From contig NZ_JAKVRD010000020.1 of the NCBI RefSeq assembly GCF_022814865.1, positions 1 to 64,000 on the forward strand: a stretch of 64,000 nucleotides of DNA, in the 5' to 3' direction. This DNA is from Shimia aestuarii (GTDB taxonomy: Bacteria; Pseudomonadota; Alphaproteobacteria; Rhodobacterales; Rhodobacteraceae). A program made the position numbers and the translations under genes. The notes below the pieces were generated by a model. It was not told the DNA's origin. It saw only the letters and a list, made by a program, of their open reading frames with translations, and searched no databases. Positions 33,131-49,256 of this stretch are shown here, piece by piece. Numbering within the stretch: position 1 is the stretch's first letter; every line of letters starts with the position of its first letter.

Positions 33131-34057
33131 TCACAGTTTCTCGGTGAGTTCCGGTACAGCCTGGAACAGGTCGGCGACCAAACCGAAATCGGCAACCTGG
33201 AAGATCGGAGCCTCTTCGTCTTTGTTGATCGCAACGATGACCTTCGAGTCCTTCATGCCAGCCAAGTGCTGGATGGCACCCGAGATGCCCACGGCGATAT
33301 ACAGTTCCGGGGCAACAACCTTGCCGGTCTGACCAACTTGCAGGTCGTTCGGGGCATAGCCCGAGTCAACAGCTGCGCGCGACGCACCAACGGCGGCGCC
33401 CAGCTTGTCGGCCAGTTTCTCGATCAGGGCGAAGTCCTCTTCCGAGCCAACGCCACGGCCACCCGACACAACAACGCCAGCCGAGGTCAGCTCGGGGCGG
33501 TCGCTTTCGGCAACCTTGTCTTCAACCCAGCTCGACAGGCCGGGATCGGCGGCTGCCGACACGGTTTCGACCGAGGCAGAGCCACCTTCGCCAGCGGCGT
33601 CGAAGGTCGAGGTGCGGAAGGTGATGACCTTTTTCGCATCCGACGAACGCACAACCTGGTTGGCGTTGCCGGCGTAGATCGGGCGTTCGAAGGTGTTGCC
33701 GTCAACCACTGCGGTCGCGTCCGAGATCACCATCACGTCCAGCAGGGCTGCGACGCGCGGCATCACGTTTTTCGCGTCGGTGGTGGCCGGAGCGACGATG
33801 TGCTCGAAGCCATCGGCCAGCGACACGATCAGCGCTGCGGTCGATTCCGCCAGACGGTGGCCCAAGGACGCGTCTTCGGCGACCAGAACTTTGGCGACGC
33901 CGTCGATTTTCGCGGCGGCTTCGCCAGCGGCTGCGGCGGAACCGCCTGCGGCCAGAACGGTCACGTCACCCAGCGCCTTGGCGGCGGTGACAGCCTTGGC
34001 GGTGGCGTCCAGCGCCAGTTCGCCGTTGGTAACTTCTGCGAGAAGAAGAACAGCCAT
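33131..34057 (-). CDS. etfA: electron transfer flavoprotein alpha subunit
   Basis: The 308-residue protein has the full EtfA pattern: N-terminal [20 protein letters not shown], a middle domain with [14 protein letters not shown], and the FAD-binding C-terminal domain with [60 protein letters not shown] and [23 protein letters not shown] takes electrons from acyl-CoA dehydrogenases and passes them to ETF-ubiquinone oxidoreductase. Its stop-start junction with etfB is immediate. It is the typical housekeeping-type ETF; its place next to the dicarboxylate beta-oxidation genes suggests that it serves the acyl-CoA dehydrogenase at 44788. Confidence 0.95.
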
Positions 34058-34815
34058 TACACAGCCCCCGCTTCTTTGAGTTTCTCTACCAGCTCGTCGA
34101 CCGACCCCACCACGATGCCGGCGGCGCGGGCTTCGGGCTCTTTGGTTTCGACGATTTCAAGACGCGGAGCGACGTCGACGCCGTAGTCGGCGGCGGTTTT
34201 CTCGTCCAGCGGCTTTTTCTTGGCCTTCATGATGTTCGGCAGCGAGGCATAGCGCGGCTCGTTCAGGCGCAGGTCAACGGTGATGATGGCGGGCATCTTC
34301 ACGTTGATGGTTTGCAGGCCGCCGTCGACTTCGCGGGTCACCTTGGCGTTGTCGCCTTCGATTTCCAGTTCCGACGCAAAGGTGCCTTGCGACCAGCCCA
34401 AGAGCGCCGACAGCATCTGACCGGTGGCGTTCATGTCGTTGTCGATGGCCTGCTTGCCGGCCAGAACGATGCCGGGCTGCTCTTCTTCGACGACTTTCGC
34501 CAGGATCTTGGCGACGGCCAGAGGCTCGATGTCGGTGTGCACATCGTCCGCCGCAACCACCAGGATCGCGCGGTCGGCGCCCATCGCAAGAGCGGTGCGC
34601 AGGGTTTCCTGCGCCTGCTTGACGCCGATCGAAACGGCGACGACTTCGTCCGCCTGACCTGCTTCTTTCAGACGGATGGCCTGTTCGACCGCAATCTCGT
34701 CAAACGGGTTCATCGACATTTTCACGTTGGCGAGATCAACTCCGCTGCCATCCGCTTTCACGCGGACTTTCACGTTATAGTCAATCACGCGCTTGACAGG
34801 TACGAGCACCTTCAT
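34057..34815 (-). CDS. etfB: electron transfer flavoprotein beta subunit
   Basis: The 252-residue protein starts at an ATG after GAGGAG. It shows the EtfB motifs: [58 protein letters not shown], and the AMP-binding/recognition loop [20 protein letters not shown] followed by [20 protein letters not shown], the ETF signature. It forms a heterodimer with EtfA. Transcription probably begins in the 424-base gap upstream. Confidence 0.95.
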
Positions 34816-35239
34816 GGGCGTTGGACTCCTCTTCCATTTTCATTTTCTATCCAGTTCGACGAATACGTTCTTTGCGTTGGTCCGGCTTCCCAATGAGGCG
34901 TCGATGGCTTGGCCCTTGGTGTAGAGCGAAATCTGGATGCAGGTTTCCATTGTCATTGTCCAAATTGTTGAGGATGAGGTCGCGCTTAACCAAATTCTAT
35001 CCTGTAGAGGCTGCAATGAAATCGATGACATCGATCTTGAGGCCGATGGTGTTGGGGTTGTAGGCCGTTGAGCTCTCAGTGTGTTCTCAAGTCTTGGTCA
35101 TAAGAGCGGCACCAGCACTGCTGGTGCCGCGAGTTGATCGCCCGTGGGGAGGTGGGTGGGCGATCTCTGTTAGATAACATGTTTCAAACCAACTAATTGT
35201 AGTTCCAAACGCTGACAAATCTGTCTTTTCATCTTTCGT
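34816..35239. other. gap between etfB and thiolase with two hairpins
   Basis: No gene that I can support. It contains a perfect 11-bp inverted repeat at 35106-35130 (GCGGCACCAGC, ACT, GCTGGTGCCGC) and a second repeat GATCGCCC / GGGCGATC at 35136-35165. They lie after the thiolase gene in its direction of transcription and could end that operon, although no T tract follows. The etfB promoter should be in the remaining A/T-richer part. Confidence 0.5.
35106..35130 (-). terminator. strong hairpin after thiolase gene
   Basis: Perfect 11-bp arms with a three-base loop lie 110 bases beyond the thiolase stop. No T tract is seen, so it is a candidate terminator or 3'-end stabiliser only. Confidence 0.45.
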
Positions 35240-36439
35240 TCAAATGCCCTCTAAAGCTATGGCTATGCCCTGACCCACACCGATGCACATAGCCGACAAT
35301 GCTCTTTCCCCGGCCTTAAGATCCAAGCTGGCAGTTCCTGTTATTCGCGCTCCTGACATGCCGAGCGGGTGGCCCAAAGCGATTGCGCCACCGTGTGGGT
35401 TGATGCGGGGGTCGTTATCTGTAATTCCGAGCGCGCGCAGCGCTGCCAAACTTTGAGAGGCAAATGCTTCGTTTAATTCGATTCTCGCGAAGTCGGTTTG
35501 GTTCAAACCCAAGCTATCCATGAGTTTGATCGACGCTGGCGCCGGGCCATAACCCATTATGCGTGGTGGCACGCCCGCGGTCGCTCCGCCGAGCACCTTC
35601 GCAATGGGCCTGAGGCCGTGCTTCTTTGCGGCTTCTTTGCTGGCGAGGATCAGTGCAGCTGCACCGTCGTTGACTCCAGAAGCATTGCCCGCTGTTACAG
35701 TTCCTCCCGCCTTTGCAATGGCACCCAACTTCTGTAGTCCTTCAAATGTGGTTGAAGCTCTCGGGTGCTCATCGGTATTAACGACAATCGGATCGCCTTT
35801 GCGTTGAGGAATAGTTACTGGTACAATTTCTTTGGCGAGGCGACCATTGGCTTGCGCTTTTGCTGCCTTCTGCTGCGAGTAAAGCGCAAACTTGTCTTGA
35901 TCCGCGCGATTGACGTTGAAGTCTTCCGCCACGTTCTCGGCGGTTTCGGGCATACTGTCGACGCCGTATTGGTCTTTCATAAGCTTGTTGACGAAACGCC
36001 ACCCGATGGTTGTGTCATGCACCTCGTTTGCCCTTGTAAAGGCGGCAGGTGCCTTTGGAATCACGAACGGCGCGCGAGACATGCTTTCGACGCCGCCAGC
36101 AATTATCATTTCGGCTTCGCCAGATTTGATTGCTCGCGCCGCAGTGATCACCGCATCCATACCTGATCCGCATAGACGATTCATCGTTGTTCCAGGAACG
36201 GTTTCCGGGTAGCCCGCCAACAAAAGCGACATGCGCGCCACGTTGCGATTGTCTTCGCCCGCCTGATTGGCGCAACCGTAGATCACCTCGTCGATGGCCT
36301 CTAAATCAAGGTAAGAGTTACGATTGGCCAGCGCCTTAAGCGGAATTGCGCCCAAGTCATCTGCGCGTACAGACGAAAGAGTACCACCATACCGGCCAAT
36401 TGGTGTGCGGATGTAATCGCAAATGAAAGCATCAGTCAT
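35240..36439 (-). CDS. pcaF: 3-oxoadipyl-CoA thiolase (PcaF-type acetyl-CoA acyltransferase)
   Basis: The protein has 399 residues from the ATG at 36439 (frame open to 36553). It carries the thiolase signature with nucleophilic Cys in NRLCGSGMDAVITAARAI, GGVESMSRAPFV, the His motif ELNEAFASQSLAAL and NPHGGAIALGHPLGMSGAR, and the second Cys in ALSAMCIGVGQGIA. The N-terminus DAFICDYIRTPIGRYGG and the block DEVIYGCANQAGEDNRNVAR are those of PcaF/PaaJ-type enzymes, which split 3-oxoadipyl-CoA to succinyl-CoA and acetyl-CoA. Last enzyme of the inferred cyclohexanol-adipate route. It follows chnA on the same strand after a hairpin-containing gap. Confidence 0.9.
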   Translation of the reverse strand: MTDAFICDYIRTPIGRYGGTLSSVRADDLGAIPLKALANRNSYLDLEAIDEVIYGCANQAGEDNRNVARMSLLLAGYPETVPGTTMNRLCGSGMDAVITAARAIKSGEAEMIIAGGVESMSRAPFVIPKAPAAFTRANEVHDTTIGWRFVNKLMKDQYGVDSMPETAENVAEDFNVNRADQDKFALYSQQKAAKAQANGRLAKEIVPVTIPQRKGDPIVVNTDEHPRASTTFEGLQKLGAIAKAGGTVTAGNASGVNDGAAALILASKEAAKKHGLRPIAKVLGGATAGVPPRIMGYGPAPASIKLMDSLGLNQTDFARIELNEAFASQSLAALRALGITDNDPRINPHGGAIALGHPLGMSGARITGTASLDLKAGERALSAMCIGVGQGIAIALEGI

Positions 36440-36537
36440 TTGTGGACTTCCTGATCTGCCTTGAACTAGCTGAAAGCACCTGCGGTGTGGTTCATCGAAA
36501 TTCTTCGGCTTCTTTTTTTTGCAGGGTTGCACAAGTG

Positions 36538-36565
36538 CCCCCGCAAGGACCAAGCCTTGCGGGGG
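36538..36565. repeat. intercistronic hairpin thiolase-chnA
   Basis: CCCCCGCAAGG, six bases, CCTTGCGGGGG: a perfect 11-bp inverted repeat between the SDR stop and the thiolase start. No T tract follows on either strand, so partial termination, mRNA stabilisation or processing is more likely than full termination. Confidence 0.7.
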
Positions 36566-36580
36566 AAAGCAACAGTGAAT

Positions 36581-37336
36581 TCAATTCGCTGTGTATCCGC
36601 CATCGACGACAATTTCTGCGCCGTGAACGAAGGATGAGTCATCAGACGCTAGGAACAGCACGGCGTTAGAAACCTCTTCCGGCTTGCTTGGACGTTTCAG
36701 TAGGGTTGCACCAAGAATAGCTTCACGCGTTGCTTCGTCGCTGTGCAGCAGATCCTTGGTCATCGGGGTGTCGATAACGCCGGGGTGGATAGAGTTCACA
36801 CGAATCCCACTGTCTGCCAGATCGACGGCACAGGATTTGGTCAGTAACCGAACCGCGCCTTTTGAGCCAATGTAAGCTCCTGCGGATGCGGCGCCGACAA
36901 TTCCATAAATTGATGAAATGTTGATAATCGAAGCGTTTCCAGATTTTTTCATCAACGGCACAGCGGCGCGAATGCCCAGATATACACCGCGAACATTAAC
37001 GTCGAAGGTCATGTCAAACTCTTCAGGTGTAGTCTCGTGAAGAGGCTTCAGAATGAGAATGCCTGCGTTGTTCACTAGAATATCCAAACGACCTGTTTTG
37101 GATTGTACCGCGGAAATGACTTTGGCCCACTCGGCTTCCTGTGTTACGTCATGTTGGATGAATTCGGCTTGGCCACCGGACGCTACAATATTCTTAACTA
37201 CGGTTTCACCCGCTTCCGCATCACGGTCAGTTACAAAGACCTGAGCGCCTTCGCGAGCTAGCAATTCGCTGTGGGCTTTGCCCATGCCCATCGCACCACC
37301 TGTTACCAGGGCAATTTTACCTGAAATACGTCCCAT
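36581..37336 (-). CDS. chnA: short-chain dehydrogenase, cyclohexanol dehydrogenase-like
   Basis: The 251-residue classical SDR has an NAD(P)-binding TGGAMGMGKAH motif near residue 12, NNAG in DILVNNAGILI, catalytic Ser in IINISSIYGIVG, and YxxxK in GAYIGSKGAVRLL. An acidic residue after the second strand (VTDRDAE) suggests NAD rather than NADP. The length and the motifs fit cyclohexanol dehydrogenases and related alicyclic alcohol dehydrogenases. The assignment to cyclohexanol rests on its place directly beside the CHMO-like monooxygenase. Reaction: cyclic alcohol to ketone. Confidence 0.8.
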   Translation of the reverse strand: MGRISGKIALVTGGAMGMGKAHSELLAREGAQVFVTDRDAEAGETVVKNIVASGGQAEFIQHDVTQEAEWAKVISAVQSKTGRLDILVNNAGILILKPLHETTPEEFDMTFDVNVRGVYLGIRAAVPLMKKSGNASIINISSIYGIVGAASAGAYIGSKGAVRLLTKSCAVDLADSGIRVNSIHPGVIDTPMTKDLLHSDEATREAILGATLLKRPSKPEEVSNAVLFLASDDSSFVHGAEIVVDGGYTAN

Positions 37337-37370
37337 TCTCTTTCTCCCTTTTTTGATTGCTAATCAGCGA

Positions 37371-37399
37371 TTGCCGGGGCATCGAAGAAGCCCCGGCAA
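37371..37399. repeat. intercistronic hairpin chnA-chnB
   Basis: TTGCCGGGGC, nine bases, GCCCCGGCAA: a perfect 10-bp inverted repeat five bases after the monooxygenase stop. Like the other gaps of this operon it has no T tract. Confidence 0.7.
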
Positions 37400-37404
37400 T
37401 TTAC

Positions 37405-39042
37405 TTATGCTTCGGCGGTTTCTCGGTCGCGGATCAGAGACGGATAGCCTTCCTCCTTTACCGCACCGATGGCCGCGCGATAGTTCCCGATCCCAGCCAT
37501 GTAGAACATGACCGCGTTCTTTTTGCCGGGGATGTTCGCGCCGAAGATCCAGCTTTCTGCCTTAGGGAAGAGGGTCATATCAGCGATTTCTCGACACGTG
37601 CCAACCCAGGCATCCCGTGCTTCCACGGTTGGCTCGACACTCTTGACGCCCGATTCTTCCATCGTGCTGATCGTCTCAGAGATCCACTCGACTTGGGTTT
37701 CAATACTTGGGGGTAGGTTTGTGAATGGGCCATTTGGGCCAAGGATCATAAAGAAGTTCGGGAAGTCGACTTCCATCATTCCAAGATAACCCAGGGGGCC
37801 TTCCTTCCATGTGTCGCGCATGGTCACACCGCCGCGGCCTCGGAGATCCATTTTCACGTAGTTGCCGTCAACAGCGTCAAAACCGGTGGCGAAGATTACG
37901 ACGTCAAGTTCATGCTCCTCTCCGCTCTCCAAGCGAATACCGTTCGGGGTGAACTCTGTAATCGGATCGGACTTTACATCTGCGAGTGTCACATTGTCCC
38001 GGTTGTAGACGTCGAAATAGTCATTTCCGCAGAGCGGGCGTTTGGCATAGAGGTCATTTGGGATTAGCATTTCAGCAATCTGAGGATCTTTTACGATCTT
38101 GCGGATCTTGCCTTTGATGAAGTCGGCTGCTGCGTCATTGGCAACCTGACTCGTTGCAATGTCGCAGAAGGTCCCGAACATGAAGTAAAAGCCGCCACCG
38201 CGCTGCCATGCAGCTTCAAACACGCGCTCACGCTCTTCCTGAGTCGCCGTTTCCGCTGGGATAGTGCTTTCTTCGAAGCCAAATGCCACGGCTGAGTTCT
38301 TTACTTGATCCCAGATTTGGTCGTAGTTTGCCTTTTGCTCGGAAATAGTTGCTTCGTCCTGGGGCGTGTTGCCGATAGGGACTACATATTGAGCAGACCG
38401 TTGGAAAACCGTCAGGTGTTTCGCAACAGGGGCCGTCGCAGTGATGACCTGAACGCCAGTCGAACCAGTGCCGATGATGCCGACACGTTTGTTCGACAAA
38501 TCGACATCTTCCGGCCAGGCGCCTGTGTGCAAAATGCGCCCCTTGAAATCATCAACACCTTTGAAGGCTGGAACGTTTGTTGCGGACAGCAGACCGAGGC
38601 CGGTCACCAGATATTTTGCGGTGACAGTCTCGCCGGAGTCTGTCGTGATGCTCCACAGCCCCGTTTCTTCATTGTATTGCGCACCGTCAACCTTCGTGTT
38701 GAACTTATAGCTGCGTCGCAGATCCAGATGGTCTGCCACTTCATTCATGTAGTCCAAAATTTCGGGTTGCGTCAGGTAGCGGGTTTTCCAGCGACCACGT
38801 TTCAGAAGTTCTTTGTCAAAGGAGTATCGGTAGACATAGCTTTCCGTGTCTGAAAGTGCGCCTGGATAGCGGTTGTGCCACCATGTGCCACCAACATCGC
38901 TGGCGCTGTCAAAACCTCGTACGTTCATTCCTTGTTCGTTGCGAAGCTTGTGGACGGCATAAAGCCCGCCGAAACCTGCACCAATTACAACCGCATCGTA
39001 GTCGGCGCCTGTTGTTTTGGTAATCTCTGTCTGTACGTTCAT
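37405..39042 (-). CDS. chnB: cyclohexanone monooxygenase (Baeyer-Villiger, type I)
   Basis: The 545-residue flavoprotein has the length of the well-studied cyclohexanone monooxygenases. It has the FAD Rossmann motif GAGFGG (residues 21-26), the Baeyer-Villiger fingerprint F-K-G-R-I-L-H-T-G-A-W (residues 166-176) and the NADPH motif GTGSTG (191-196). Further blocks are nearly those of the Acinetobacter enzyme as I remember it: HLTVFQRSAQYVVPIGN, DLYAKRPLCGNDYFDVYNRD, ATGFDAVDGNYVKMD, LGPNGPFTNLPPSIE, and WIFGANIPGKKNAV. It would turn cyclohexanone into epsilon-caprolactone with NADPH and O2. Related rings (cyclopentanone) remain possible substrates. Confidence 0.93.
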   Translation of the reverse strand: MNVQTEITKTTGADYDAVVIGAGFGGLYAVHKLRNEQGMNVRGFDSASDVGGTWWHNRYPGALSDTESYVYRYSFDKELLKRGRWKTRYLTQPEILDYMNEVADHLDLRRSYKFNTKVDGAQYNEETGLWSITTDSGETVTAKYLVTGLGLLSATNVPAFKGVDDFKGRILHTGAWPEDVDLSNKRVGIIGTGSTGVQVITATAPVAKHLTVFQRSAQYVVPIGNTPQDEATISEQKANYDQIWDQVKNSAVAFGFEESTIPAETATQEERERVFEAAWQRGGGFYFMFGTFCDIATSQVANDAAADFIKGKIRKIVKDPQIAEMLIPNDLYAKRPLCGNDYFDVYNRDNVTLADVKSDPITEFTPNGIRLESGEEHELDVVIFATGFDAVDGNYVKMDLRGRGGVTMRDTWKEGPLGYLGMMEVDFPNFFMILGPNGPFTNLPPSIETQVEWISETISTMEESGVKSVEPTVEARDAWVGTCREIADMTLFPKAESWIFGANIPGKKNAVMFYMAGIGNYRAAIGAVKEEGYPSLIRDRETAEA

Positions 39043-39154: not shown

Positions 39155-40057
39155 TCAGAGGCCCTTGTACCAGGCCGCGATCCGACCAAGTTCCTCTGTC
39201 GCTTCTGGTGCGCGTCCCGACAGGGCGGGGAAAACGTGCTGCATACCGTCAACAACAGAGAGCGTCGCATTAACACCCTGTTCTTTTGCCTTTTTGTAAA
39301 GGCGCTCAGAGTCGCTGAGCAAAGTTTCTGCGCCGCCAGCATTGATATAGAGTGGTGGGTAGCCCGAGAAATCATTCTCCAACGGGTTGGCGAGTGGGTT
39401 CAACGGGTTTGTCTCTTCTCCCAGGAACATGCCCGCCATTGCTTCAAGGATTGGCTTTCCAACCAGGGCGTCGGTTTCGGCGTTAGTTTCCAGTGATGGG
39501 CCACGCATCGCCATGTCGAGCCAAGGCGAGTACGCGATAACACCCCCAGGCAGCGGCAGGCCAAGTTCACGCATCTTGAGTACGCTTGCGACGGCAAGAT
39601 TGCCACCCGCACTGTCACCTGCCGTCAGAATCTTTGCTGGTTCATAGCCTTGCTCCAAAAGTGCCTTGTACGCTGCGACTGCGTCTTCAAGCTGAGCCGG
39701 GAACGGATGTTCAGGCGCTCGGCGATAATGCAAGATCACGGAAATTACGCCCAGTTCCTTGGCAAGGTGACCTGCCATTTTTCTGTGGCTGTCCGCAGAT
39801 CCTACGGCAAAGCCGCCACCATGCGTATAAACGATCACGCGAGATTTATCAGCGCCTTCAGGTAGCGCCCAAATAGCTTCGACCCCTCCCACATGGTCGC
39901 TTTTGTAGCTTACATTTTCGGGCTCAAGCGCGGGCTGACCCCATTCGTCGAACATGCTGCGCAGATTTGCGATCGTCAGGTCTGGGTTCTCGACCATCTG
40001 GTCTGTCCAGTTCTGATAAAGCGCTCGGAGCGTGTCTGCTTCTTTGCTGACTTGCAT
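39155..40057 (-). CDS. chnC: alpha/beta hydrolase, caprolactone hydrolase-like (HSL family)
   Basis: The 300-residue esterase of the hormone-sensitive-lipase type has the oxyanion motif HGGG (residues 79-82), nucleophile Ser149 in GDSAGG, and a late Asp/His region ending in GMQHVFPAL. ILHYRRAPEHPFPAQLEDAV is a strong HSL-family block. Lactonases next to cyclohexanone monooxygenases (ChnC-type) belong to this family and open epsilon-caprolactone to 6-hydroxyhexanoate. The start ATG follows GGGAGG closely. The next gene upstream lies 242 bases away across a hairpin-containing gap. Confidence 0.85.
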   Translation of the reverse strand: MQVSKEADTLRALYQNWTDQMVENPDLTIANLRSMFDEWGQPALEPENVSYKSDHVGGVEAIWALPEGADKSRVIVYTHGGGFAVGSADSHRKMAGHLAKELGVISVILHYRRAPEHPFPAQLEDAVAAYKALLEQGYEPAKILTAGDSAGGNLAVASVLKMRELGLPLPGGVIAYSPWLDMAMRGPSLETNAETDALVGKPILEAMAGMFLGEETNPLNPLANPLENDFSGYPPLYINAGGAETLLSDSERLYKKAKEQGVNATLSVVDGMQHVFPALSGRAPEATEELGRIAAWYKGL

Positions 40058-40299: not shown

Positions 40300-42354
40300 T
40301 TAGGCGGAAGCGAAAACCAGATCTAGGTTGCGTGGCGTTTTCCAACTGAACGTGGTCTTTTCTGCGCACGCATCATAAAGCGCCCTTACTCGAGCCTCGC
40401 CGACGTTCTGAGCGTAGTGCATCAAACCACCTCGCCAGCGAGGGAAACCGTAGCCGTGGATCATCACCAGATCGATGTCCCGTGGTTGCTCTGCAATGCC
40501 TTCCTCAAGGATGTCGCAAGCTTCTGTCAGCATTGTTAGCACAAGCCGGTCAACAATCTCCTCAGAGCGAAATGTCTGAAGTGGAATGGTCAGGTCTTCT
40601 GAAATTTGGGAAATTTCCGCTGCGACTGTGCTTGAAGCTGAAGACCGACCTTCTGCGTCATAGTCATACCACCCTGCGCCAGATTTGCGTCCTAGGCGAT
40701 TATGTTCCTCAACCATCTGTTCAACCAGTGGAACGTGATCCTCGTCTAGTCCTTTGTTGGCGGACCTCCTCTGAATATTCGCATAGGCAATGTCCAAGCC
40801 TGACATGTCCTGCGCTGAAAATGGACCCATTGCCATGCCAAAGTCACGCATTGCGGTATCAATTTGTTCGACCGAGGCGCCTTCTACTAGAAGGCGAATG
40901 GCGGCTTGCCGGTAGCTCGATAAGATCCGGTTCCCGATAAAGCCGTCGCATACGCCGGATAGAACGGGGACTTTATTAAGTCGGCTAGCCAGGTCAAATG
41001 CAATGCCTAAGGTGTTGTCCGAGGTTTGATTGCCCCGGACAATTTCCAAAAGCTTCATAATGTGAGCGGGGCTAAAGAAATGTAGACCGACGAAACGATC
41101 AGGATTCTTGAGGCCTTCCGCTAGTCGATTGACATCAAGGTAAGATGTATTGGTCGCAAGCACGGCATCATGTGGCAACACGGCTTCCAGTTCGTTCAGA
41201 ATTGCGCATTTTACATCGAAGTTTTCGAATGCGGCCTCAATAGCTAGAGTGGCCTGAGGAAGATTTGCATAGCCAACTGCTGTGGCCAGACGAGAGACAA
41301 TGGCCTGTGCGGCCTCATCCTGCAACACCCCTCGCTTGACGCCTTGGTTTACGAGCTCATGAAGGTTGTTGGAAGCCCATTCAGCCGATGCAGTATCGCG
41401 TTCTACGACCGTCACAGAAATCCCTGCGGATGCTAGTGTATAGGCAATGGCGGCCCCCATATTGCCGCCACCAACTACAACCGCGGTTTCAATTTTCTTT
41501 GAAGAACATGGGAAAATGCGTGCCTTGTTTGCCGCCGCACGCTCGGAAAAGAAGACGTGGCGAAGGGAGCGAGCTTGATCCGATTTGCGCAGGGTCAGAA
41601 AAGCAGATCGTTCGTTTTGCAACGCTTCGGCGAATTGCATTGAGGCACTGGCTTTTATCAGGTCCGCTGCGATCTGTGGAGCATCCTGGCCCGCCATCCG
41701 TCGCTTGGCACGCGTGTGCGCGGCGGCCAATGCCGCGTCATCCGGCAAAGGTGCTGGCAGATGGTCTGGAGCCCTTGCCTTCGCTAGATCAGCAGCGTCA
41801 AGCGCTAGAGCTGCCTCCAATGGATCTTCGGCCAATTGTTGGATCATCCCCAAGTTTATGGCCCGAGTGGCGGAAACTGCCTGTCCGCTGACAATCATAT
41901 CAAGTGCGGATTCTATGCCGATAAGCCGAGGCAATCGCTGTGTCCCGCCAGCTCCGGGCACCATTCCCAGGATGACTTCGGGCAGACCCAATCTGGCTGC
42001 CGGAGCAGCGATACGGAAGCGGCACGCTAGGGCTATTTCCAATCCTCCGCCAAGTGCTACGCCGTTGATCGCCGCGATGGTTGGGATCGAAAGTTGTGCC
42101 AGCTTTAACAGCACATCGTTCAGCTGAGGATCATGCGGAGGCTTTCCGAATTCATTTGCGTCCGCACCCGCAACGAAAGTTGTCCCCGCACCGGTGATAA
42201 TCAGGCGACTAGCGCCAGAATCGTGTGCTCGGCTAATTCCGCGTTCGATACCGGCTCGAACCTCCGCATTGATCAGGTTAAGGGGCGGGTTGTTGATAGT
42301 TAGGATGGCGGAACCATTCACGATGCTAAATTCGACAGGCATCTGCAATCTCAT
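40300..42354 (-). CDS. fused enoyl-CoA hydratase / 3-hydroxyacyl-CoA dehydrogenase
   Basis: The 684-residue bifunctional enzyme has an N-terminal crotonase domain with the oxyanion segment TTFVAGADANEFG, GVALGGGLEIALACRFRIA and the catalytic-glutamate block GLPEVILGMVPGAGGTQRLP. From about residue 290 comes the NAD-dependent 3-hydroxyacyl-CoA dehydrogenase: AVVVGGGNMGAAIAYTLASA, ATNTSYLDVNRLA, and VGLHFFSPAHIMKLLEIVRG with the catalytic His. The HAD C-terminal domain (GFIGNRILSSYRQAA, MIHGYGFPRWRGGLMHYA) ends it. In this setting it would convert 2,3-dehydroadipyl-CoA to 3-oxoadipyl-CoA. Its ATG overlaps the aldehyde dehydrogenase stop by four bases. Confidence 0.9.
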   Translation of the reverse strand: MRLQMPVEFSIVNGSAILTINNPPLNLINAEVRAGIERGISRAHDSGASRLIITGAGTTFVAGADANEFGKPPHDPQLNDVLLKLAQLSIPTIAAINGVALGGGLEIALACRFRIAAPAARLGLPEVILGMVPGAGGTQRLPRLIGIESALDMIVSGQAVSATRAINLGMIQQLAEDPLEAALALDAADLAKARAPDHLPAPLPDDAALAAAHTRAKRRMAGQDAPQIAADLIKASASMQFAEALQNERSAFLTLRKSDQARSLRHVFFSERAAANKARIFPCSSKKIETAVVVGGGNMGAAIAYTLASAGISVTVVERDTASAEWASNNLHELVNQGVKRGVLQDEAAQAIVSRLATAVGYANLPQATLAIEAAFENFDVKCAILNELEAVLPHDAVLATNTSYLDVNRLAEGLKNPDRFVGLHFFSPAHIMKLLEIVRGNQTSDNTLGIAFDLASRLNKVPVLSGVCDGFIGNRILSSYRQAAIRLLVEGASVEQIDTAMRDFGMAMGPFSAQDMSGLDIAYANIQRRSANKGLDEDHVPLVEQMVEEHNRLGRKSGAGWYDYDAEGRSSASSTVAAEISQISEDLTIPLQTFRSEEIVDRLVLTMLTEACDILEEGIAEQPRDIDLVMIHGYGFPRWRGGLMHYAQNVGEARVRALYDACAEKTTFSWKTPRNLDLVFASA

Positions 42355-43805
42355 TCTACAGGAGCGCGGTTACGCGAAATGAATTTGGTCATGAGGTAAC
42401 CATCAAAGGTCTCTGTTCCCCCTTCGCTTCCATAACCGCTGTCTCTGACGCCGCCGAACGGGGTCTCCGGTAAAGCGAGGCCGAATTGGTTGATGCTGAC
42501 CATTCCCGCATGCAGATTTTGGGCGGCTTGGTCCGCTCGTTCCAAGGAATTGGTGAACACGTAGGATGCGAGACCGAATGGCAATCCATTCGCGCGCGAT
42601 AGGCCATCTTCGATGCTTTTGAATGGAGATACCGCCGCAATAGGACCGAATGGCTCCTCTCGCATCAAAGCAATGCTGTCGTCGGGCGTGTCAACAATGG
42701 TTGGCGCAAAGAAGTTTCCAACATTGCCGATGCGACTGCCTCCGGTCAGGATATGCGCGCCATTCTGTCGCGCATCCTCAACAAGCTGCTCCATCGCGTT
42801 AACGCGGCCGGGGTGACACAGCGGCCCCATATCAATGCGGTCGTGCAACCCATCACCTACCTTTACGCGTTCAAAGGCCGAAACCAGTTCCGCCATGAAG
42901 TGGTCGTAGATCCCTTGCTGAACAAAAAAGCGGGTTGGTGCGATGCAAACTTGGCCAGCGTTGCGCAATTTGTTGGTCGCAAGGGCTCGTGCCGCTGCTT
43001 CAGCGTCGGCATCGTCAAATACCAAGACTGGGGCGTGGCCACCAAGTTCCATTGTCGCGCGCTTCATGTGGCGTCCGGCCAGTTCGGCTAGGTGCTTGCC
43101 CACTCCCACCGATCCAGTGAATGTGATTTTGCGCACTTCGGGGCGTTCAATAAGCGTCTCCGAGATGAAACCCGAATTACCCCAAACCAAATTAAGGCAA
43201 CCTTCTGGCAGGCCCGCTTCTTGGAGGAATCGTGCTATTGCCATACAGCCCGCCGGCGCCTCCGCCGGCGCTTTGAGGATCATGGTGCAGCCTGAAGCTA
43301 GCGCCGCCGCCACTTTTCGAACTGCCTGGCTCAGCGGGAAATTCCAGGGAGTAATGGCAAGGCACACGCCAATGGGTTCGCGAACGACAAGCTGTTGAAC
43401 CTGTGGGCTACGCGAGGGCACGATTCGACCATAGATGCGTCTGCACTCTTCAGCGTGCCAATCCACGTGATCGGCGGAGGAATGTACCTCGGCTAAGGCT
43501 TCGGCCAGGGGTTTTCCTTCATCAAGCGTGATCCAGCCAGATATCAGCGTGTCATTGGCCCTCAGAAGGTCTGCGAACTTCCGTAGAATTCCGCTTCGAT
43601 CCATGGGCGACGTGTTTCTCCAGAGTTGAAAAGCTGATTCGGCGGAACGAACGGCGCGATCCAAATCCGCAGCGCTTGCCTGGGGTATCTGTCCAATTTT
43701 TTCACCATTCGCTGGATTCAGGACAACGCGGTCTTCCTGTGTTTGAGCGCCGCTCCACTCTCGTCCTATCAGGTGTTGTATTACGGGATATTTCAAAGAA
43801 TTCAC
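42351..43805 (-). CDS. chnE: NAD(P)-dependent aldehyde dehydrogenase, 6-oxohexanoate dehydrogenase-like
   Basis: The 484-residue ALDH superfamily protein resembles succinate-semialdehyde dehydrogenases. Motifs: AITPWNFPLSQAVRKVAAAL, FTGSVGVGKHLAELAG, catalytic Glu in MELGGHAPVLVFDDAD, catalytic Cys in NAGQVCIAPTRFFV, and EEPFGPIAAV. ChnE-type enzymes, which oxidise 6-oxohexanoate to adipate, are of this kind. The start is a GTG; a ribosome site is weak. It is the first gene of the minus-strand operon, divergent from the IclR regulator across a 171-base region with a palindromic operator. Confidence 0.88.
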   Translation of the reverse strand: MNSLKYPVIQHLIGREWSGAQTQEDRVVLNPANGEKIGQIPQASAADLDRAVRSAESAFQLWRNTSPMDRSGILRKFADLLRANDTLISGWITLDEGKPLAEALAEVHSSADHVDWHAEECRRIYGRIVPSRSPQVQQLVVREPIGVCLAITPWNFPLSQAVRKVAAALASGCTMILKAPAEAPAGCMAIARFLQEAGLPEGCLNLVWGNSGFISETLIERPEVRKITFTGSVGVGKHLAELAGRHMKRATMELGGHAPVLVFDDADAEAAARALATNKLRNAGQVCIAPTRFFVQQGIYDHFMAELVSAFERVKVGDGLHDRIDMGPLCHPGRVNAMEQLVEDARQNGAHILTGGSRIGNVGNFFAPTIVDTPDDSIALMREEPFGPIAAVSPFKSIEDGLSRANGLPFGLASYVFTNSLERADQAAQNLHAGMVSINQFGLALPETPFGGVRDSGYGSEGGTETFDGYLMTKFISRNRAPVE

Positions 43806-43879: not shown

Positions 43880-43894
43880 TTCCGCATAGCGGAA
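43880..43894. promoter_or_regulatory. IclR-type operator palindrome
   Basis: TTCCGC-ATA-GCGGAA is a perfect 15-bp palindrome centred between the divergent operons. On the minus strand it abuts a TATATA -10-like box. Palindromes with this CGGA half-site are typical IclR-family operators, and an IclR gene starts 83 bases away. Confidence 0.7.
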
Positions 43895-43909
43895 AACTTT
43901 ACCGCACTA

Positions 43910-43938: not shown

Positions 43939-43976
43939 GCGTTTCAAGAAGCATCGTTAGAGGTAGGAGGGGTGCA

Positions 43977-44771
43977 TTGAGGCCAAGAAAGAACCGCACT
44001 GATGACACGGAAGGACCAGATCGAGATTTCGTGACAGCGCTGGCGCGTGGCCTTGAAGTACTGCGGGCATTCCGACGCGAAGGCGAGGCTCTCGGGAATG
44101 GTGATTTGGCCAAACGGACAGGTCTTAGCAAATCGACGATCTCAAGGCTGGTCTACACGTTGAATAAACTCGAGTACCTTAGCTACGACCCGGATACTGC
44201 TCGCTATCGCTTGGCACCGCCTGTGCTGTCGCTGGGTTATTCTTGCCTCGCCGGGATGCCAGTACGGCAGTTGGCGAGACCTTATATGCAAGAACTGGCG
44301 GACTACACCGGCATGCCCGTGGCTATGGCCAGTCGTGACAGGCATTCGATGGTTTACCTGGAACGCTGCAAAGGAACCAATGCTGTGACGCTGGCAATAG
44401 AAGTCGGTGCCCATATCAAACTGGCGACATCGGCTGTGGGCCGCGCATACATCGCGTCGCAAGAGCCGGAAGAGCAAGCAAAAATCCTCTCCGTCTTGAA
44501 GGAACATGAAGGCGACAACTGGTCGAAAGTACTGCCCGGCATTGAAACCGCCATCGAAAGCTACGAGAGGCTCGGATACTGCACTTCGTTCACGGAGTGG
44601 AAGAACAACGTGAATGCAGTAGCCGTGCCCTATATTCCCAAAGATGGCTCACCCGTCATTGCGTTCAACTGCGGTGGCCCTTCTCAAACATTGACGCGCG
44701 ACTGGATTGAAAACGACGTCGCCCCCCGTCTTGTCGAACTTGTCCGTCGCCTTTCGACGGTCGCCCCTTAA
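43977..44771 (+). CDS. IclR-family regulator of the catabolic cluster
   Basis: The 264-residue protein probably starts at TTG, with AGGAGG eight bases upstream. The N-terminal winged helix reads FVTALARGLEVLRAF, GNGDLAKRTGLSKSTISRLV and YTLNKLEYLSYD. The effector domain follows with RDRHSMVYLERCKGTNAVTL and TSAVGRAYIASQEPEEQAK. It has the size and layout of PcaR/PcaU-type IclR proteins, which sense beta-ketoadipate-type acids. It is expected to bind the palindrome at 43880 and control both divergent operons in response to an intermediate such as adipate or its CoA ester; the effector is inferred. Confidence 0.9.
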   Translation: MRPRKNRTDDTEGPDRDFVTALARGLEVLRAFRREGEALGNGDLAKRTGLSKSTISRLVYTLNKLEYLSYDPDTARYRLAPPVLSLGYSCLAGMPVRQLARPYMQELADYTGMPVAMASRDRHSMVYLERCKGTNAVTLAIEVGAHIKLATSAVGRAYIASQEPEEQAKILSVLKEHEGDNWSKVLPGIETAIESYERLGYCTSFTEWKNNVNAVAVPYIPKDGSPVIAFNCGGPSQTLTRDWIENDVAPRLVELVRRLSTVAP

Positions 44772-44787
44772 CTACGCTGAGAGCACC

Positions 44788-45948
44788 ATGGCCCTAGATA
44801 CAGACACCCTTTCGCAATTTCTCGACGCGCTCGATCGCTTCGTCAAAGAACGGCTGATACCCAAAGAAGAGCAAATAGCCGTTGAGGATATGATTCCATC
44901 TGAGTTGGTGGACGAAATTCGCATGATGGGCTTGTTCGGCATGTCGATCCCCGAGGAATTTGGCGGTCTTGGCCTTTCAATGGCGGAGGAAGTGAAGGCG
45001 GCTTTTGTATTGGGCCAAACTTCTCCGGCATTTCGGTCTCTTGTTGGTACCAATAACGGAATTGGTTCACAGGGGATAATTATTGATGGAACCGATGCGC
45101 AGAAGGACCGATATCTGCCTTCGCTTGCCTCCGGCGAGATGATTGCCTCCTTTGCGTTGACCGAACCCGATGCAGGATCGGATGCGGGTAGTGTGCGTAC
45201 TACTGCTCGCCGTGACGGAAGCGATTTCATCCTAAACGGTACAAAACGCTACATTACCAACGCTCCTCGCGCAGACCTTTTCACGGTTTTTGCTCGCACC
45301 AACCCTGACGAAAAGGGAGCTGCTGGCGTTAGCGCTTTCCTCATCGAAGCGGGGACTCCCGGGTTAACGCTAGGTCCGCCTGACCGCAAAATGGGGCAGA
45401 AAGGTTCTCACACCTGTGACGTTATTCTGGACAACGTTCGGGTTCCAGCAGCCAGCATTATCGGCGGCCCGGAGCGGCTGAACAAGGGCTTCAAAACGGC
45501 AATGAAAGTTCTAGACCGGGGGCGACTGCATATTTCCGCCGTTTGTGTGGGTGCCGCTGAGCGTCTGATCAAGGAGAGCCTGAATTTCGCAACAGAGCGT
45601 AAGCAATTCGGTGCTCCAATTGCAGATAAGCAACTGATCCAAGCGATGCTAGCTGATAGCAGGGCCGAGTCCTTCGCTGCGCGCTGCATGATCGAAGAAA
45701 CCGCGCGCCGCAAGGACGCCGGCCAGAACGTATCAACCGACGCAGCCTGCTGCAAAATGTATGCAAGCGAAATGGTGGGCCGAGTGGCGGATCGCGCGGT
45801 GCAGATTCACGGTGGAGCGGGCTATATGGCCGAATACTCTGTCGAACGCTTTTATCGTGATGTGCGTCTCTTCCGTATTTACGAGGGCACAACTCAAATT
45901 CAACAAGTACTGATCGCGCGAAACATGATCCGCGACGCTGCGGCTTAA
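44788..45948 (+). CDS. acyl-CoA dehydrogenase, probably adipyl-CoA dehydrogenase
   Basis: The protein has 386 residues from the ATG at 44788. It shows the ACAD signatures ASFALTEPDAGSDAGSVRTT and RKQFGAPIADKQLIQAMLAD. The catalytic base is in FRIYEGTTQIQQVLIARNMI, as in short/medium-chain enzymes; glutaryl-CoA dehydrogenases have a different sequence here, which argues for plain desaturation of a C6 dicarboxylyl-CoA rather than oxidative decarboxylation. It starts 17 bases after the IclR gene and is co-transcribed with it. Electrons would go to ETF, probably the plasmid EtfAB at 33131-34815. Confidence 0.85.
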   Translation: MALDTDTLSQFLDALDRFVKERLIPKEEQIAVEDMIPSELVDEIRMMGLFGMSIPEEFGGLGLSMAEEVKAAFVLGQTSPAFRSLVGTNNGIGSQGIIIDGTDAQKDRYLPSLASGEMIASFALTEPDAGSDAGSVRTTARRDGSDFILNGTKRYITNAPRADLFTVFARTNPDEKGAAGVSAFLIEAGTPGLTLGPPDRKMGQKGSHTCDVILDNVRVPAASIIGGPERLNKGFKTAMKVLDRGRLHISAVCVGAAERLIKESLNFATERKQFGAPIADKQLIQAMLADSRAESFAARCMIEETARRKDAGQNVSTDAACCKMYASEMVGRVADRAVQIHGGAGYMAEYSVERFYRDVRLFRIYEGTTQIQQVLIARNMIRDAAA

Positions 45949-45965
45949 AAGAATTGGGGAATACA

Positions 45966-47120
45966 ATGGACTTCAATTTTCTTTCCACACCAAAGATTGT
46001 TTGCAAAAGCGGCGGGCTCTCGCAGATCGGAAATCTCATGCAGGGGTTGTCCTGCACACGCGTGTTGATCGTGACTGATCCTGGCATTGTTGCTTGTGGT
46101 TTTTCTGGGGATACGGTCAATGCGCTCAAGGCTGAGGGTCTTGAGGCCAAAGTTTTTGATCAGGTCGCCGCCGATCCACCGATTTCTGTTGTTGAGACCG
46201 CTATCGAATGTGCTCGAGATTTTGGAGCAGATGGGGTAATTGGACTAGGGGGCGGCAGTTCGCTGGATACCGCAAAGGTCGTTGCAGCGGCGTTGCCCAA
46301 CAAACAACCTGTCGCGGAAATGATTGGTGTTGACCGCGTCACTGGAAAACGTTTGCCGCTCGTTCAAGTGCCGACAACCGCAGGAACCGGCTCCGAGGTC
46401 ACTTGGGTGTCAGTTTTGACTTCGGAAACGCATGAGAAACAAGCGGTCTACGCTCCACAGCTACTGCCTGATATTGCCTTGCTCGACGCTAAGCTCACAT
46501 TGGGCATGCCGCGGTCCATAACGGCGGCAACGGGATTGGACGCCATGGTGCACGCCATAGAGGCCGCAACCAGCCGGACGCGCAAGAACCCAGTCTCGGA
46601 TGCGCTTGCCGACAAAGCTCTTACTCTACTGGGTCAAAATCTCAGGAGAGTTTTGGACATGCCTTCGGACCTTGCAGCGCGCGAAGCAATGTTATTGGGG
46701 GCAACGCTGGCTGGAATGGCGTTCATCAATGCCAGCGTGGGAGCAATTCATGCTTTGTCTTATCCGCTGGGAACCGGATTTCACGTACCTCATGGGCACG
46801 GAAACGCATTGGTTGCAGGCCCTGTGATGCGTTACAATTTGCCTGCCGCAGAAAAAGAATATGCCCGCCTGTCACGGTTGCTTCTGCCAGCGCGGCCCTT
46901 CAAATCAAATGCTGCCGCCGCCAATGCTTTGATCGATGAGATGGAACAAATCTTGTCTGACAGCGGGTTGGAAACACGGCTGTCTGCATTGGGTGTCACC
47001 AAGGACGCGATTCCGAGCATGGCGAATGAGGTCGTCACTGGCATCAAGCGACTGCTTGAGACTAACCCGCGTGATATGACGGCCGAAGATGTCTCTCGTC
47101 TTTACCATGAGGTGCTCTGA
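45966..47120 (+). CDS. iron-containing alcohol dehydrogenase, probably 6-hydroxyhexanoate dehydrogenase
   Basis: The 384-residue type III alcohol dehydrogenase has the NAD-binding GLGGGSSLDTAKVVAA, VPTTAGTGSEVTWVSV, and iron-ligand residues in ATGLDAMVHAIEAATS and GAIHALSYPLGTGFHVPHGH. In known cyclohexanol pathways (ChnD) the hydroxyacid step uses a zinc-type enzyme of another family, so this would be a non-orthologous replacement. It sits between the acyl-CoA dehydrogenase and CoA transferase genes and overlaps the latter (TGATG). It is the only alcohol dehydrogenase of the cluster other than the SDR. Confidence 0.82.
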   Translation: MDFNFLSTPKIVCKSGGLSQIGNLMQGLSCTRVLIVTDPGIVACGFSGDTVNALKAEGLEAKVFDQVAADPPISVVETAIECARDFGADGVIGLGGGSSLDTAKVVAAALPNKQPVAEMIGVDRVTGKRLPLVQVPTTAGTGSEVTWVSVLTSETHEKQAVYAPQLLPDIALLDAKLTLGMPRSITAATGLDAMVHAIEAATSRTRKNPVSDALADKALTLLGQNLRRVLDMPSDLAAREAMLLGATLAGMAFINASVGAIHALSYPLGTGFHVPHGHGNALVAGPVMRYNLPAAEKEYARLSRLLLPARPFKSNAAAANALIDEMEQILSDSGLETRLSALGVTKDAIPSMANEVVTGIKRLLETNPRDMTAEDVSRLYHEVL

Positions 47121-48304
47121 TGAGTGGAGCATTGGAAGGAATCAAGGTGGTCGATCTAAGTCGTGTGCTTGGGGGGCCGTATTGCACGCAGATGCTTGCC
47201 GACCACGGCGCGGAGGTGATCAAAGTTGAGCCGCCTCAGGGTGATGAAACACGAGGCTGGGGGCCGCCCTTCAAAGACGAGCTTAGCGCGTATTTTTCAG
47301 GAGCAAATCGCAACAAAAGATCCATAGCCATTGACCTGCGCCAACCGGAAGGGCGTAACCTGGTCTTGAGGCTGTTAGAAGATGCGGACGTTTTGGTTCA
47401 CAATTTCAAACCTGGCGCACTGGAAAAATGGGGGCTTGGTTATGAGGAAGTGTTGTCAATCAAGTTCCCAAAGCTTGTGTTTTGCCACGTCACCGGCTTT
47501 GGCGCAGATGGGCCGCTTGGCGGATTTCCGGGGTATGACGCTGTTGTGCAGGCCATGACTGGGCTAATGAGTATCAATGGTAATCCAGCTAATGGCCCAA
47601 CTCGGATGGGTACACCAATCGTGGACATTGGGACTGGCATGATTGCCTGTAATGCCATTCTCGCCTCCCTTCTGGAACGTGGTCGATCCGGATTGGGGCA
47701 AGCCATTGAGGTGCCGCTCTATGATTCCGCAATCAGCATGATGCACCCGCAAGCGGCCAATTCCTTGATGTCTGGGCAGATCCCGAAGGCGACGGGCAAT
47801 GGACACCCTAATATCGTGCCATATGACATGTTTGAGACAAGCACCGGCAAACTATATTTGGCAGTTGGGAACAACCGGCAATTTGCGGTTCTCTGTGATG
47901 TGCTCGGAATTCCAGAAGTGCCTAGAGACGTTCGGTTTGTCGACAATGCTGCCCGTTTGACCCATCGGGCAGAGATTACGCATCTTCTCTCTGAGTGTTT
48001 ACGGTGTCATGATGCCTTCGAATTGGAACCCGTGCTATTAAATGCAGGCGTTCCTGCGGGTGTTGTCCGTGATGTCAATGAAGCCCTTGCCCATCCGCAC
48101 ACACGGCACCGCGATATGGTTGTTTCTAAAGAAGGGTACCGAGGCACAGGTGTGCCAGCGCGATTGTCGCGTACCCCTGGAACAGTACGTTCGGCGCCAC
48201 CTCGTTTCGGGCAACACTCGATAGAGCTACTGCGCGAAGCCAAACTGACGGAAGACGAAATAGGCGAGCTGGTTAGCAAGGATATCGTTCGCGCTGAACA
48301 ATAA
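47120..48304 (+). CDS. CaiB/BaiF class III CoA transferase, probably dicarboxylate CoA transferase
   Basis: The 394-residue protein shows the family III pattern: VVDLSRVLGGPYCTQMLADH, GAEVIKVEPPQGDETRGWGP, NFKPGALEKWGLGYEEV, and the catalytic aspartate in GTPIVDIGTGMIACNAI. Members related to human SUGCT move CoA from succinyl-CoA to C5-C6 dicarboxylates. Here it would activate adipate using the succinyl-CoA released by the thiolase, which makes the pathway self-priming and explains the absence of a CoA ligase. It is the last gene of the iclR-led operon before the AraC gene. Confidence 0.85.
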   Translation: MSGALEGIKVVDLSRVLGGPYCTQMLADHGAEVIKVEPPQGDETRGWGPPFKDELSAYFSGANRNKRSIAIDLRQPEGRNLVLRLLEDADVLVHNFKPGALEKWGLGYEEVLSIKFPKLVFCHVTGFGADGPLGGFPGYDAVVQAMTGLMSINGNPANGPTRMGTPIVDIGTGMIACNAILASLLERGRSGLGQAIEVPLYDSAISMMHPQAANSLMSGQIPKATGNGHPNIVPYDMFETSTGKLYLAVGNNRQFAVLCDVLGIPEVPRDVRFVDNAARLTHRAEITHLLSECLRCHDAFELEPVLLNAGVPAGVVRDVNEALAHPHTRHRDMVVSKEGYRGTGVPARLSRTPGTVRSAPPRFGQHSIELLREAKLTEDEIGELVSKDIVRAEQ

Positions 48305-48374
48305 GTCGGAGGGCTGGCTTAGATTGGAGTTGTGCTAGAAGAGGACAAGCAGAATACAGCTTGGGGAGGTGAAG

Positions 48375-49256
48375 ATGAATAACGCACTCATTACGCCGAA
48401 CGGTATACCTGAATGGATTCCAGGTGAGACTACGCTTGACAGTTCTGGTAGTGGATGGCGAGGCCTGACCCTAAAGGGTTACAACTACGATGGGCAAGAT
48501 GCTGATATCCCACCTATGCGTGATTACATGATTGTTGCCTACGATTGCGCGGCAACAACGATGTCCCGATCTGACGGGGGCTCTTGGGAGCACGCGCGCG
48601 TGGGCAAAGGCCGAGTGTCTTTGCTGACGCGTGGAGAGAAGTCGACATGGCGTTGGGTTGATCCGATTTCCGTCAGACACGTCTACCTCACTCATGATGA
48701 GATCGAAACAACGGCACTGTCTGTTTTTGATCGTGATCCGCAATCCATTGAGATTAATGACCGACTATCTTCCGAGGATCCGGTGATAGTGAACTGCGTT
48801 CGCCTCTTGGAGGGCGAATTGAAGAATGGTGGGCTTGGTCAAAAGTTAATGATAGACGCTTTGCGCAACCAGATCGCTGTTCATTTGCTTCGCCAATATG
48901 CCCAAGTTACCTTGGACAGTGACGCCACCTGTAAATTTAATCCCAGCCAGCGGCGACGCATCATCGATTTGGTGGAAAGCTCTCTTGATGAAAACTTGAA
49001 CATCAAGGATATGGCCGACACTGTTGGTCTCAGTCAGTTCCACTTTTCGCGACAGTTCAAGACAGAGTTCGGATACGCACCGCACGCCTATGTGTTGCGC
49101 AGACGCATTTCAAGAGCGAAAGAAATGTTGCGACAAGGAGATGTTCCTCTGAAAGTGGTCGCACTGGATTGCGGGTTTTCAGATCAAAGTCACTTTAGCC
49201 GTTCTTTCCGAAAAGCTACTGGACTAACCCCGGGCAAATTTCGGATGCTAGCATGA
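48375..49256 (+). CDS. AraC-family regulator
   Basis: The protein has 293 residues, starting at an ATG after GGGGAGGTG. The N-terminal part is a variable sensor-like domain. The C-terminal 100 residues hold the two helix-turn-helix motifs: SLDENLNIKDMADTVGLSQF, HFSRQFKTEFGYAPHAYVLR, then VALDCGFSDQSHFSRSFRKA and TGLTPGKFRM. AraC-type activators (ChnR in Acinetobacter) control cyclohexanone genes in known clusters, so this is a plausible activator here, besides the IclR protein. The 70-base gap after the CoA transferase gene has no obvious terminator. Confidence 0.88.
   Translation: MNNALITPNGIPEWIPGETTLDSSGSGWRGLTLKGYNYDGQDADIPPMRDYMIVAYDCAATTMSRSDGGSWEHARVGKGRVSLLTRGEKSTWRWVDPISVRHVYLTHDEIETTALSVFDRDPQSIEINDRLSSEDPVIVNCVRLLEGELKNGGLGQKLMIDALRNQIAVHLLRQYAQVTLDSDATCKFNPSQRRRIIDLVESSLDENLNIKDMADTVGLSQFHFSRQFKTEFGYAPHAYVLRRRISRAKEMLRQGDVPLKVVALDCGFSDQSHFSRSFRKATGLTPGKFRMLA

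Follow-up and report, generated by a model that had tools for sequence, protein, structure and literature searches.

A predicted transferable gene cassette for the breakdown of C6 alicyclic alcohols and ketones in Shimia aestuarii

Introduction

Cyclohexanone oxidation is textbook biochemistry, and ChnD, an alcohol dehydrogenase (ADH) of the chn pathway, is of the zinc type (Zn-ADH). In Acinetobacter (NCIMB 9871 / SE19), this pathway leads to adipate by means of an ADH, a cyclohexanone monooxygenase (CHMO), a hydrolase, a further ADH and an aldehyde dehydrogenase (ALDH), according to PMC4738008; its activator ChnR is an AraC/XylS-family regulator (PMC4225500). Here we analyze a window of 64,000 nucleotides, bases 1-64,000 of the 66,769-base contig NZ_JAKVRD010000020.1 from the 3.97-Mb genome of Shimia aestuarii, in which 13 genes (positions 33131-49256) are arranged around an IclR-family regulator. 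Gene families, motifs, conserved synteny and a conserved palindrome make it likely that these genes form a transferable cassette through which alcohols and ketones with a C6 alicyclic ring are degraded. Enzyme substrates, the binding and effectors of the regulators and transfer itself are predicted on this basis.

Several components have been described. A cyclohexane pathway proceeding via cyclohexanone monooxygenase was rebuilt from oil-spill sediment metagenomes (PMC4069396), and transcripts of such a pathway were assigned to Marinobacter (PMC3982105). ChnR and the chn enzymes (PMC4225500, PMC11683335, PMC4738008) and the caprolactone hydrolase ChnC of Gulosibacter (PMC9477822) are documented, and ChnD/ChnE-type enzymes together with a lactonase have been used in Escherichia coli (PMC7542165, PMC11984861). 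No published roseobacter cyclohexanone plasmid was found in the open-licence full-text literature, judged by titles and the beginnings of abstracts. The pathway is known in kind, and the block is already widespread in sequenced plasmids; what appears new is its packaging, the candidate operator, the iron-containing alcohol dehydrogenase (Fe-ADH), the probable exchange of the electron transfer flavoprotein (ETF) and the loss forms associated with IS21.

Compared with the chn genes of Acinetobacter, known here from descriptions only, the window has an Fe-type instead of a Zn-type ADH, an additional IclR regulator, and beta-oxidation, thiolase and ETF genes inside the same block. Other comparisons rely on loci that mostly extend at most 10 kb to each side, so that "absent" means absent from that stretch. 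Plasmid 2 of Polaromonas JS666 (L114), typed as conjugative, carries three genes 64-65% identical to those of the window, but it has a Zn-ADH and no match to IclR, FadJ, PcaF or ETF. In Actibacterium pNS6002 and its kin (L113, L018, L020, L022, L030), the palindrome is present and the short-chain dehydrogenase/reductase (SDR), Baeyer-Villiger monooxygenase (BVMO), hydrolase, IclR and acyl-CoA dehydrogenase (ACAD) are 71-83% identical. This group, however, has a Zn-ADH, an ALDH in four of the five members that is only 48-49% identical, and no FadJ, PcaF or ETF match. A betaproteobacterial metagenome-assembled genome (MAG) of Undibacterium (L033) encodes the same set of activities in one run, but with a Zn-ADH (Pfam) and neither an IclR nor an AraC match. 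Finally, the actinobacterial locus L047 (Microcella) resembles the window in having a hydrolase, BVMO, ALDH, CaiB, ACAD and FadJ relative, with Zn-ADH where the window has Fe-ADH; identities are 29-56%, strands are mixed and the order differs.

Gene Content and Arrangement of the Block

The two divergent arms around IclR announced by the original prediction are borne out by gene order. On the minus strand, moving away from IclR, are found ALDH (42351-43805), a predicted 6-oxohexanoate dehydrogenase in the role of ChnE; FadJ (40300-42354), a fused enoyl-CoA hydratase/3-hydroxyacyl-CoA dehydrogenase; an HSL-type hydrolase (39155-40057), predicted to act on caprolactone as ChnC does; the CHMO-type BVMO (37405-39042); the SDR (36581-37336), a predicted cyclohexanol dehydrogenase in the ChnA role, whose gene adjoins that of the BVMO in L033, L113, L114 and L115; the PcaF-type 3-oxoadipyl-CoA thiolase (35240-36436, a start chosen by us within a longer open reading frame); and the ETF subunits EtfB (beta, 34057-34815) and EtfA (alpha, 33131-34057), the latter a genus-type copy. 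The plus strand carries IclR (43977-44771), ACAD (44785-45948), predicted to act on adipyl-CoA, Fe-ADH (45966-47120, assigned by Pfam), a predicted 6-hydroxyhexanoate dehydrogenase, a class III (CaiB) CoA transferase (47120-48304) predicted to activate adipate, and an AraC-family regulator (48369-49256) that is kept with the cassette. Between the arms, at 43880-43894, lies a perfect palindrome without strand, TTCCGCATAGCGGAA, the predicted IclR operator.

All genes named by that prediction are present, open and supported by family matches; it had omitted the AraC gene, which lies within its own range, and could not see the rearrangement of ETF and thiolase described below. The 13 genes have no internal stop, and their catalytic motifs, searched with regular expressions, are intact. 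Against the Sulfitobacter copy (L110), pN/pS ranges from 0.094 to 0.276 over the 13 genes, with synonymous sites near saturation in several of them and the two ETF genes probably not being orthologues. Scans for promoters and terminators gave no clear excess over shuffled sequences (6 vs. 8.5 and 21 vs. 18.8, respectively). Since this set of genes is found together again in many loci, chance is excluded as an explanation of the block.

A Predicted Route From Cyclohexanol to Central Metabolites

The monooxygenase contains the BVMO fingerprint FxGxxxHxxxW(P/D), as FKGRILHTGAWP at residue 166, and both Rossmann motifs, GAGFGG and GTGSTG. Among solved chains, it scores 716-740 bits with those named CHMO, 556-682 bits with "putative monooxygenase" chains and at most 478 bits with steroid, phenylacetone and other enzymes. 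The enzyme is therefore of the CHMO type, as originally proposed, and activity on cyclohexanone is predicted. With the BVMO encoded on plasmid 2 of Polaromonas JS666, it shares 64% identity. A CHMO from this strain was cloned and screened, according to a review (PMC3915288), and we infer that it is the plasmid 2 gene.

As in the chn pathway, SDR, CHMO, hydrolase and ALDH genes are linked. It can be proposed that the SDR converts cyclohexanol to cyclohexanone, into which the CHMO-type enzyme would insert oxygen to give epsilon-caprolactone. The HSL hydrolase would then release 6-hydroxyhexanoate, which Fe-ADH and then ALDH would oxidize to adipate. After formation of adipyl-CoA by the CaiB transferase, ACAD (passing its electrons to ETF), FadJ and the PcaF thiolase would yield succinyl-CoA and acetyl-CoA. 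The thiolase passes the TIGR02430 (pcaF) cut-off (655.3 against 597) as well as that of PRK09050. Because of this, a C6 (adipate) route is favored over a C5 route, and the earlier claim of a path from the ring to central metabolites appears likely for C6 compounds.

In the C5 route, a cyclopentanone monooxygenase (CPMO)-like enzyme acting in cyclopentanol breakdown would lead to 5-valerolactone, glutarate, glutaryl-CoA, crotonyl-CoA and acetoacetyl-CoA. CHMO and CPMO overlap in substrates, and the top model for CaiB is succinate-glutarate CoA transferase. Such a route has no need of PcaF, yet the thiolase exceeds the 3-oxoadipyl-CoA cut-offs, the run in L033 likewise ends with PcaF, and ACAD scores only 227.6 with the sole glutaryl-CoA dehydrogenase model listed, the cut-off of which is 470. 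A C5 function is therefore quite improbable.

It should be noted that several points weigh against the C6 assignment. Fe-ADH, ACAD, CaiB, ALDH and hydrolase are under every curated cut-off shown (up to 25 models per protein), and consequently the substrates of all five rest on context. The best CaiB model (352.7 bits, cut-off 750) fits a C5 route too, and the BVMO relatives were compared without the CPMO of Comamonas. Moreover, many of the loci used for comparison are close relatives or duplicates, L170 repeating L015 and L171 repeating L013.

Another possibility is that the C6 ketone degraded in nature is a substituted or natural one, for instance an algal or terpenoid breakdown product, cyclohexanone being accepted only in vitro. 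CHMOs are promiscuous, the strains that harbor cassette plasmids were obtained from coral, copepod, algae and plastic surfaces, and a variant comes from an oil-contaminated tidal flat. The lower pathway is, however, that of unsubstituted adipate and, in the annotated stretches viewed, no extra enzyme gene is kept with the cassette save a thioesterase after AraC in L110, L112, L159 and L160. We regard this alternative as unlikely, and retain cyclohexanol and cyclohexanone as the predicted substrates. The thioesterase gene, annotated as acyl-CoA thioesterase, is a feature of these Sulfitobacter-type plasmids; the window has a thioesterase-like gene of its own (50545-51009), with no match to L110 at 1e-15.

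The original prediction also held that only ring hydroxylation and uptake are missing. This is a fair description as far as the search went, which did not extend to transporters; four P450 matches (one of them short), with no known link to cyclohexane, lie elsewhere in the genome. The rest of the genome was searched for BVMO, ETF, PcaF, FadJ and ACAD, and not for SDR, hydrolase, Fe-ADH, ALDH or CaiB. It contains no other close BVMO, the one match being 30% identical over part of the protein, and has paralogues of ETF (92% and 83% identity), PcaF (65%), FadJ (at most 41%) and ACAD (at most 39%). From this search, the contig is the sole source of this BVMO, and the lower steps could be partly backed up.

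Distribution of the Cassette

Using tblastn against PLSDB, the gene table of which is incomplete, 24 records were found with a BVMO of at least 60% identity among the 60 listed of 515 with any match (12 at 90-95%, 2 at 80-90% and 10 at 60-80%). For FadJ, 21 records are at 60-80% identity among the 40 listed of 1,929 with any match. In the genus, the BVMO is found in 2 of 25 genomes (E<=1e-100). In the family sample, 26 of 394 genomes pass E<=1e-120, with at least 90% identity only in the own genome and one other, and at most 50% in the rest. This patchy distribution fits horizontal spread. The same cassette order is seen in L110, L112 and L115, and also in L170 and L171, where it is cut at the locus edge.

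These data also bear on whether two independent clusters, one for lactone formation and one for dicarboxylate beta-oxidation, merely lie side by side. In the stretch of JS666 plasmid 2, only hydrolase, BVMO, SDR and Zn-ADH are together, with a 33% CaiB match further off. Conversely, two of the 21 FadJ plasmids, S. indolifex pDSM14862_e (L159) and the S. pontiacus OXR-199 plasmid (L160), hold most of the lower genes without BVMO, SDR, hydrolase or ETF. The other 19, however, also hold a BVMO at at least 79% identity (listed tables compared), everything is in a single run in L033, and, depending on the layout, the palindrome beside IclR faces either ALDH or the hydrolase. Fortuitous neighborhood is thus very improbable, and a single functional cassette is preferred. 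In L159 and L160, an IS21 element stands in place of ETF, SDR, BVMO and hydrolase, and FadJ, ALDH, IclR, ACAD, Fe-ADH, CaiB and AraC are retained; in L160, pcaF and neighboring transfer genes are also gone at the IS21 site. Both are natural deletion forms that have lost the ring-opening genes.

In the Undibacterium MAG, the order on one strand is etfB-etfA-hydrolase-BVMO-SDR-ZnADH-ALDH-ACAD-CaiB-FadJ-PcaF, and the thiolase passes the pcaF cut-off. With the window proteins, its CaiB and FadJ share only 41% and 39% identity, respectively, so that assembly of this set of functions may have taken place on more than one occasion. The whole-pathway run occupies 3464-20924 of L033, including upstream open reading frames (3464-5008 and 5024-6274) without NCBIfam match at 1e-60. 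In L047, most of the functions are found within 21.6 kb. With L033 and such actinobacterial loci, the linkage is not special to roseobacters.

Two candidates were discarded. A 2.4-kb gap in L110 was considered as a hidden transporter; its two tested open reading frames match transposase families. Replacement of FadJ (66% identity) was also considered, but its best plasmid matches are cassette copies, and the Sulfitobacter and Roseibium FadJ differ nearly as much (68%).

A Possible Exchange of the Alcohol Dehydrogenase

In place of the Zn-type ChnD of the chn pathway, the window has an Fe-ADH. The distribution of both types was surveyed in L003-L060 and L068 (80 of 131 relatives retained; L058 and L068 each hold half of a single gene from one MAG), with identity thresholds of 50% for Fe-ADH and 38% for Zn-ADH. 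Of 37 loci with a BVMO at least 70% identical, 26 have only a close Fe-ADH, 7 only the Zn-ADH, none both and 4 neither (L031, plus L017, L029 and L068, which are truncated at contig ends). At 50-70% BVMO identity, Zn-ADH is found in 10 of 28 loci, a close Fe-ADH in none and neither in 18. At the survey thresholds, none of the 26 Fe-type loci matches the Actibacterium Zn-ADH. This pattern suggests that the Fe-ADH has displaced ChnD, that is, that it would perform the 6-hydroxyhexanoate step. Since the 26 Fe-type loci are close kin, the split may reflect few events.

Two layouts deserve mention. In the MAG contig L029, AraC-CaiB-ACAD-IclR diverge from hydrolase-BVMO, and the region between them lacks a match to Fe-ADH, FadJ or ALDH; this layout resembles an intermediate. 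In L059 (Neobacillus citreus, 9034-12951), hydrolase, BVMO, Fe-ADH and ALDH are in a row, the Fe-ADH (35%) being under the survey threshold; an independent recruitment of Fe-ADH is possible, as is contamination.

A Probable Exchange of the Electron Transfer Flavoprotein

In L110, L112 and L115, as well as in L111 and the same-genus locus L170, the order is SDR-etfB-etfA-pcaF, whereas the window has SDR-pcaF-(424 bp)-etfB-etfA. EtfA of the window shares 95% identity with a copy from the same genus and 74-80% with five cassette copies. Among 18 other genomes of the genus, 14 have exactly one EtfA match (E<=1e-90), 2 have more and 2 have none, so that these genus copies look like housekeeping genes. 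In the EtfA tree, the window copy falls among them with weak inner support. A single clade of the window EtfA and the five cassette EtfA is rejected (p-AU 0.0104, an optimistic value as the group was named after seeing the tree). This test covered EtfA and PcaF, and not EtfB. Together, the EtfA tree, identities and gene order suggest that the cassette lost its own ETF and that a genus-type pair came to lie at the end. The ETF genes listed by the original prediction are thus present, but are probably not those that the cassette first carried. The nearest relative of the window PcaF is a pcaIJ-linked PcaF (82%), and one clade with the cassette PcaF is not rejected (p-AU 0.295).

GC content at third codon positions was set aside as a sign of foreign ETF, the Sulfitobacter cassette's own ETF being at least as rich (0.81 vs. 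0.74-0.78). Leisingera thetidis pBMJM1_2 (L158) was likewise dismissed as donor of the ETF-PcaF pair, its PcaF being only 63% identical. This plasmid carries ETF, pcaF, a FadJ relative and a gene annotated as salicylyl-CoA 5-hydroxylase, and provides another catabolic block with an ETF-pcaF end.

Regulators and the Candidate Operator

An alignment of six loci shows the palindrome as a conserved block in the otherwise diverged ALDH-IclR spacer. Its consensus is TTCCGC-N3-GCGGAA, with arms kept and the middle three bases variable. IclR matches were found in 38 loci, 37 of them full length at 68-81% identity, and in 37 of these 37 a site with at most one mismatch lies 89-99 bases before IclR. L016 was left out, its partial IclR match starting at residue 167 and its site lying 324 bases before that match. 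The kinship noted above also tempers this figure: the 37 loci include relatives and duplicates, are not independent, and have only 16 distinct upstream sequences over the last 150 bases. When the 20 distinct upstreams of 600 bases were shuffled, a round gave 0.02 hits on average and at most 2. A perfect match occurs once in the window and in 20 of 165 loci, one each. Once one or two errors are allowed, the window yields close to the chance number of matches (10 altogether against 5.84 expected, a count of 10 being reached in 10 of 100 shuffles). A test upstream of BVMO (0 of 27) reads mostly hydrolase coding sequence and is not a fair promoter control.

In Actibacterium, the gene across the site from IclR is that of the hydrolase and not ALDH. 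As it stays by IclR though the partner gene changes, the palindrome follows the regulator. We infer that IclR binds it and, placed between the arms, would control both. The best model for IclR is TIGR02431 (PcaR/PcaU/PobR), the cut-off of which is not passed (137.2 against 284.75). The AraC-family protein, the gene of which is linked to the cassette, is possibly a ChnR-like activator and would probably act as a second, ring-sensing regulator.

Contig and Transfer Region

The left half of the window encodes a DnaA_N-domain protein adjoining a ParA-type ATPase, with a weak ParB_N match. Family matches identify a MobA/VirD2-type relaxase (16713-18641, plus strand) and a VirD4-type coupling protein (18656-20551, plus strand). 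Type IV secretion genes follow on the minus strand (20557-31633) and encode a VirB11-type ATPase, B10, B9, B8, B6, a VirB5-like protein, two transglycosylases and VirB4, with VirB3 (30225-30503) and VirB2 (30519-30800) within this region. Thus, the relaxase, the coupling protein and VirB2, B3, B4, B6 and B8-B11 of a VirB/VirD4 conjugation set are all found; VirB7 was not sought. For bases 1-24,900, the closest plasmid relatives come from roseobacters, the best being Leisingera caerulea (88.5% identity over 41% of the query).

The contig is well supported as a plasmid, though not as a closed circle, since a terminal comparison shows that it ends without overlap. The VirB/VirD4 genes lie beside the block, and horizontal spread is supported (the 2 of 25 genus genomes and the 12 plasmid records at 90-95%); transfer of the block as one unit is a prediction.

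Beside the cassette, 51257-59431 encodes a proline dehydrogenase-like protein, a GntR regulator, an FMN oxidoreductase, a DUF3483/CCG iron-sulphur protein and an ETF alpha-domain protein, a set that we take to resemble those for dimethylglycine/proline-betaine demethylation. Further on, 60747-61309 is similar to IS30 transposases of roseobacter plasmids, and the open reading frame 60613-61275 is without Pfam match.

Implications

Beyond the cassette itself, a wider picture can be put forward only tentatively. A cassette would circulate among marine roseobacters, in which the Fe-ADH replaced ChnD and IclR, by means of one palindrome, runs whichever arm comes to face it through rearrangement. 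ETF of the host lineage could replace the cassette's own, which would mean that ETF is truly required, and the natural substrate may be an unrecognized marine alicyclic compound.

The analysis yields a defined candidate operator and a candidate new role for Fe-type alcohol dehydrogenases, and the plasmids of S. indolifex (pDSM14862_e) and S. pontiacus OXR-199 are ready natural loss comparators. The cassette enzymes may also serve adipate production. As a transferable block that also covers adipate beta-oxidation and supplies an electron carrier, it would allow the trait to pass from one marine bacterium to another in a single step.

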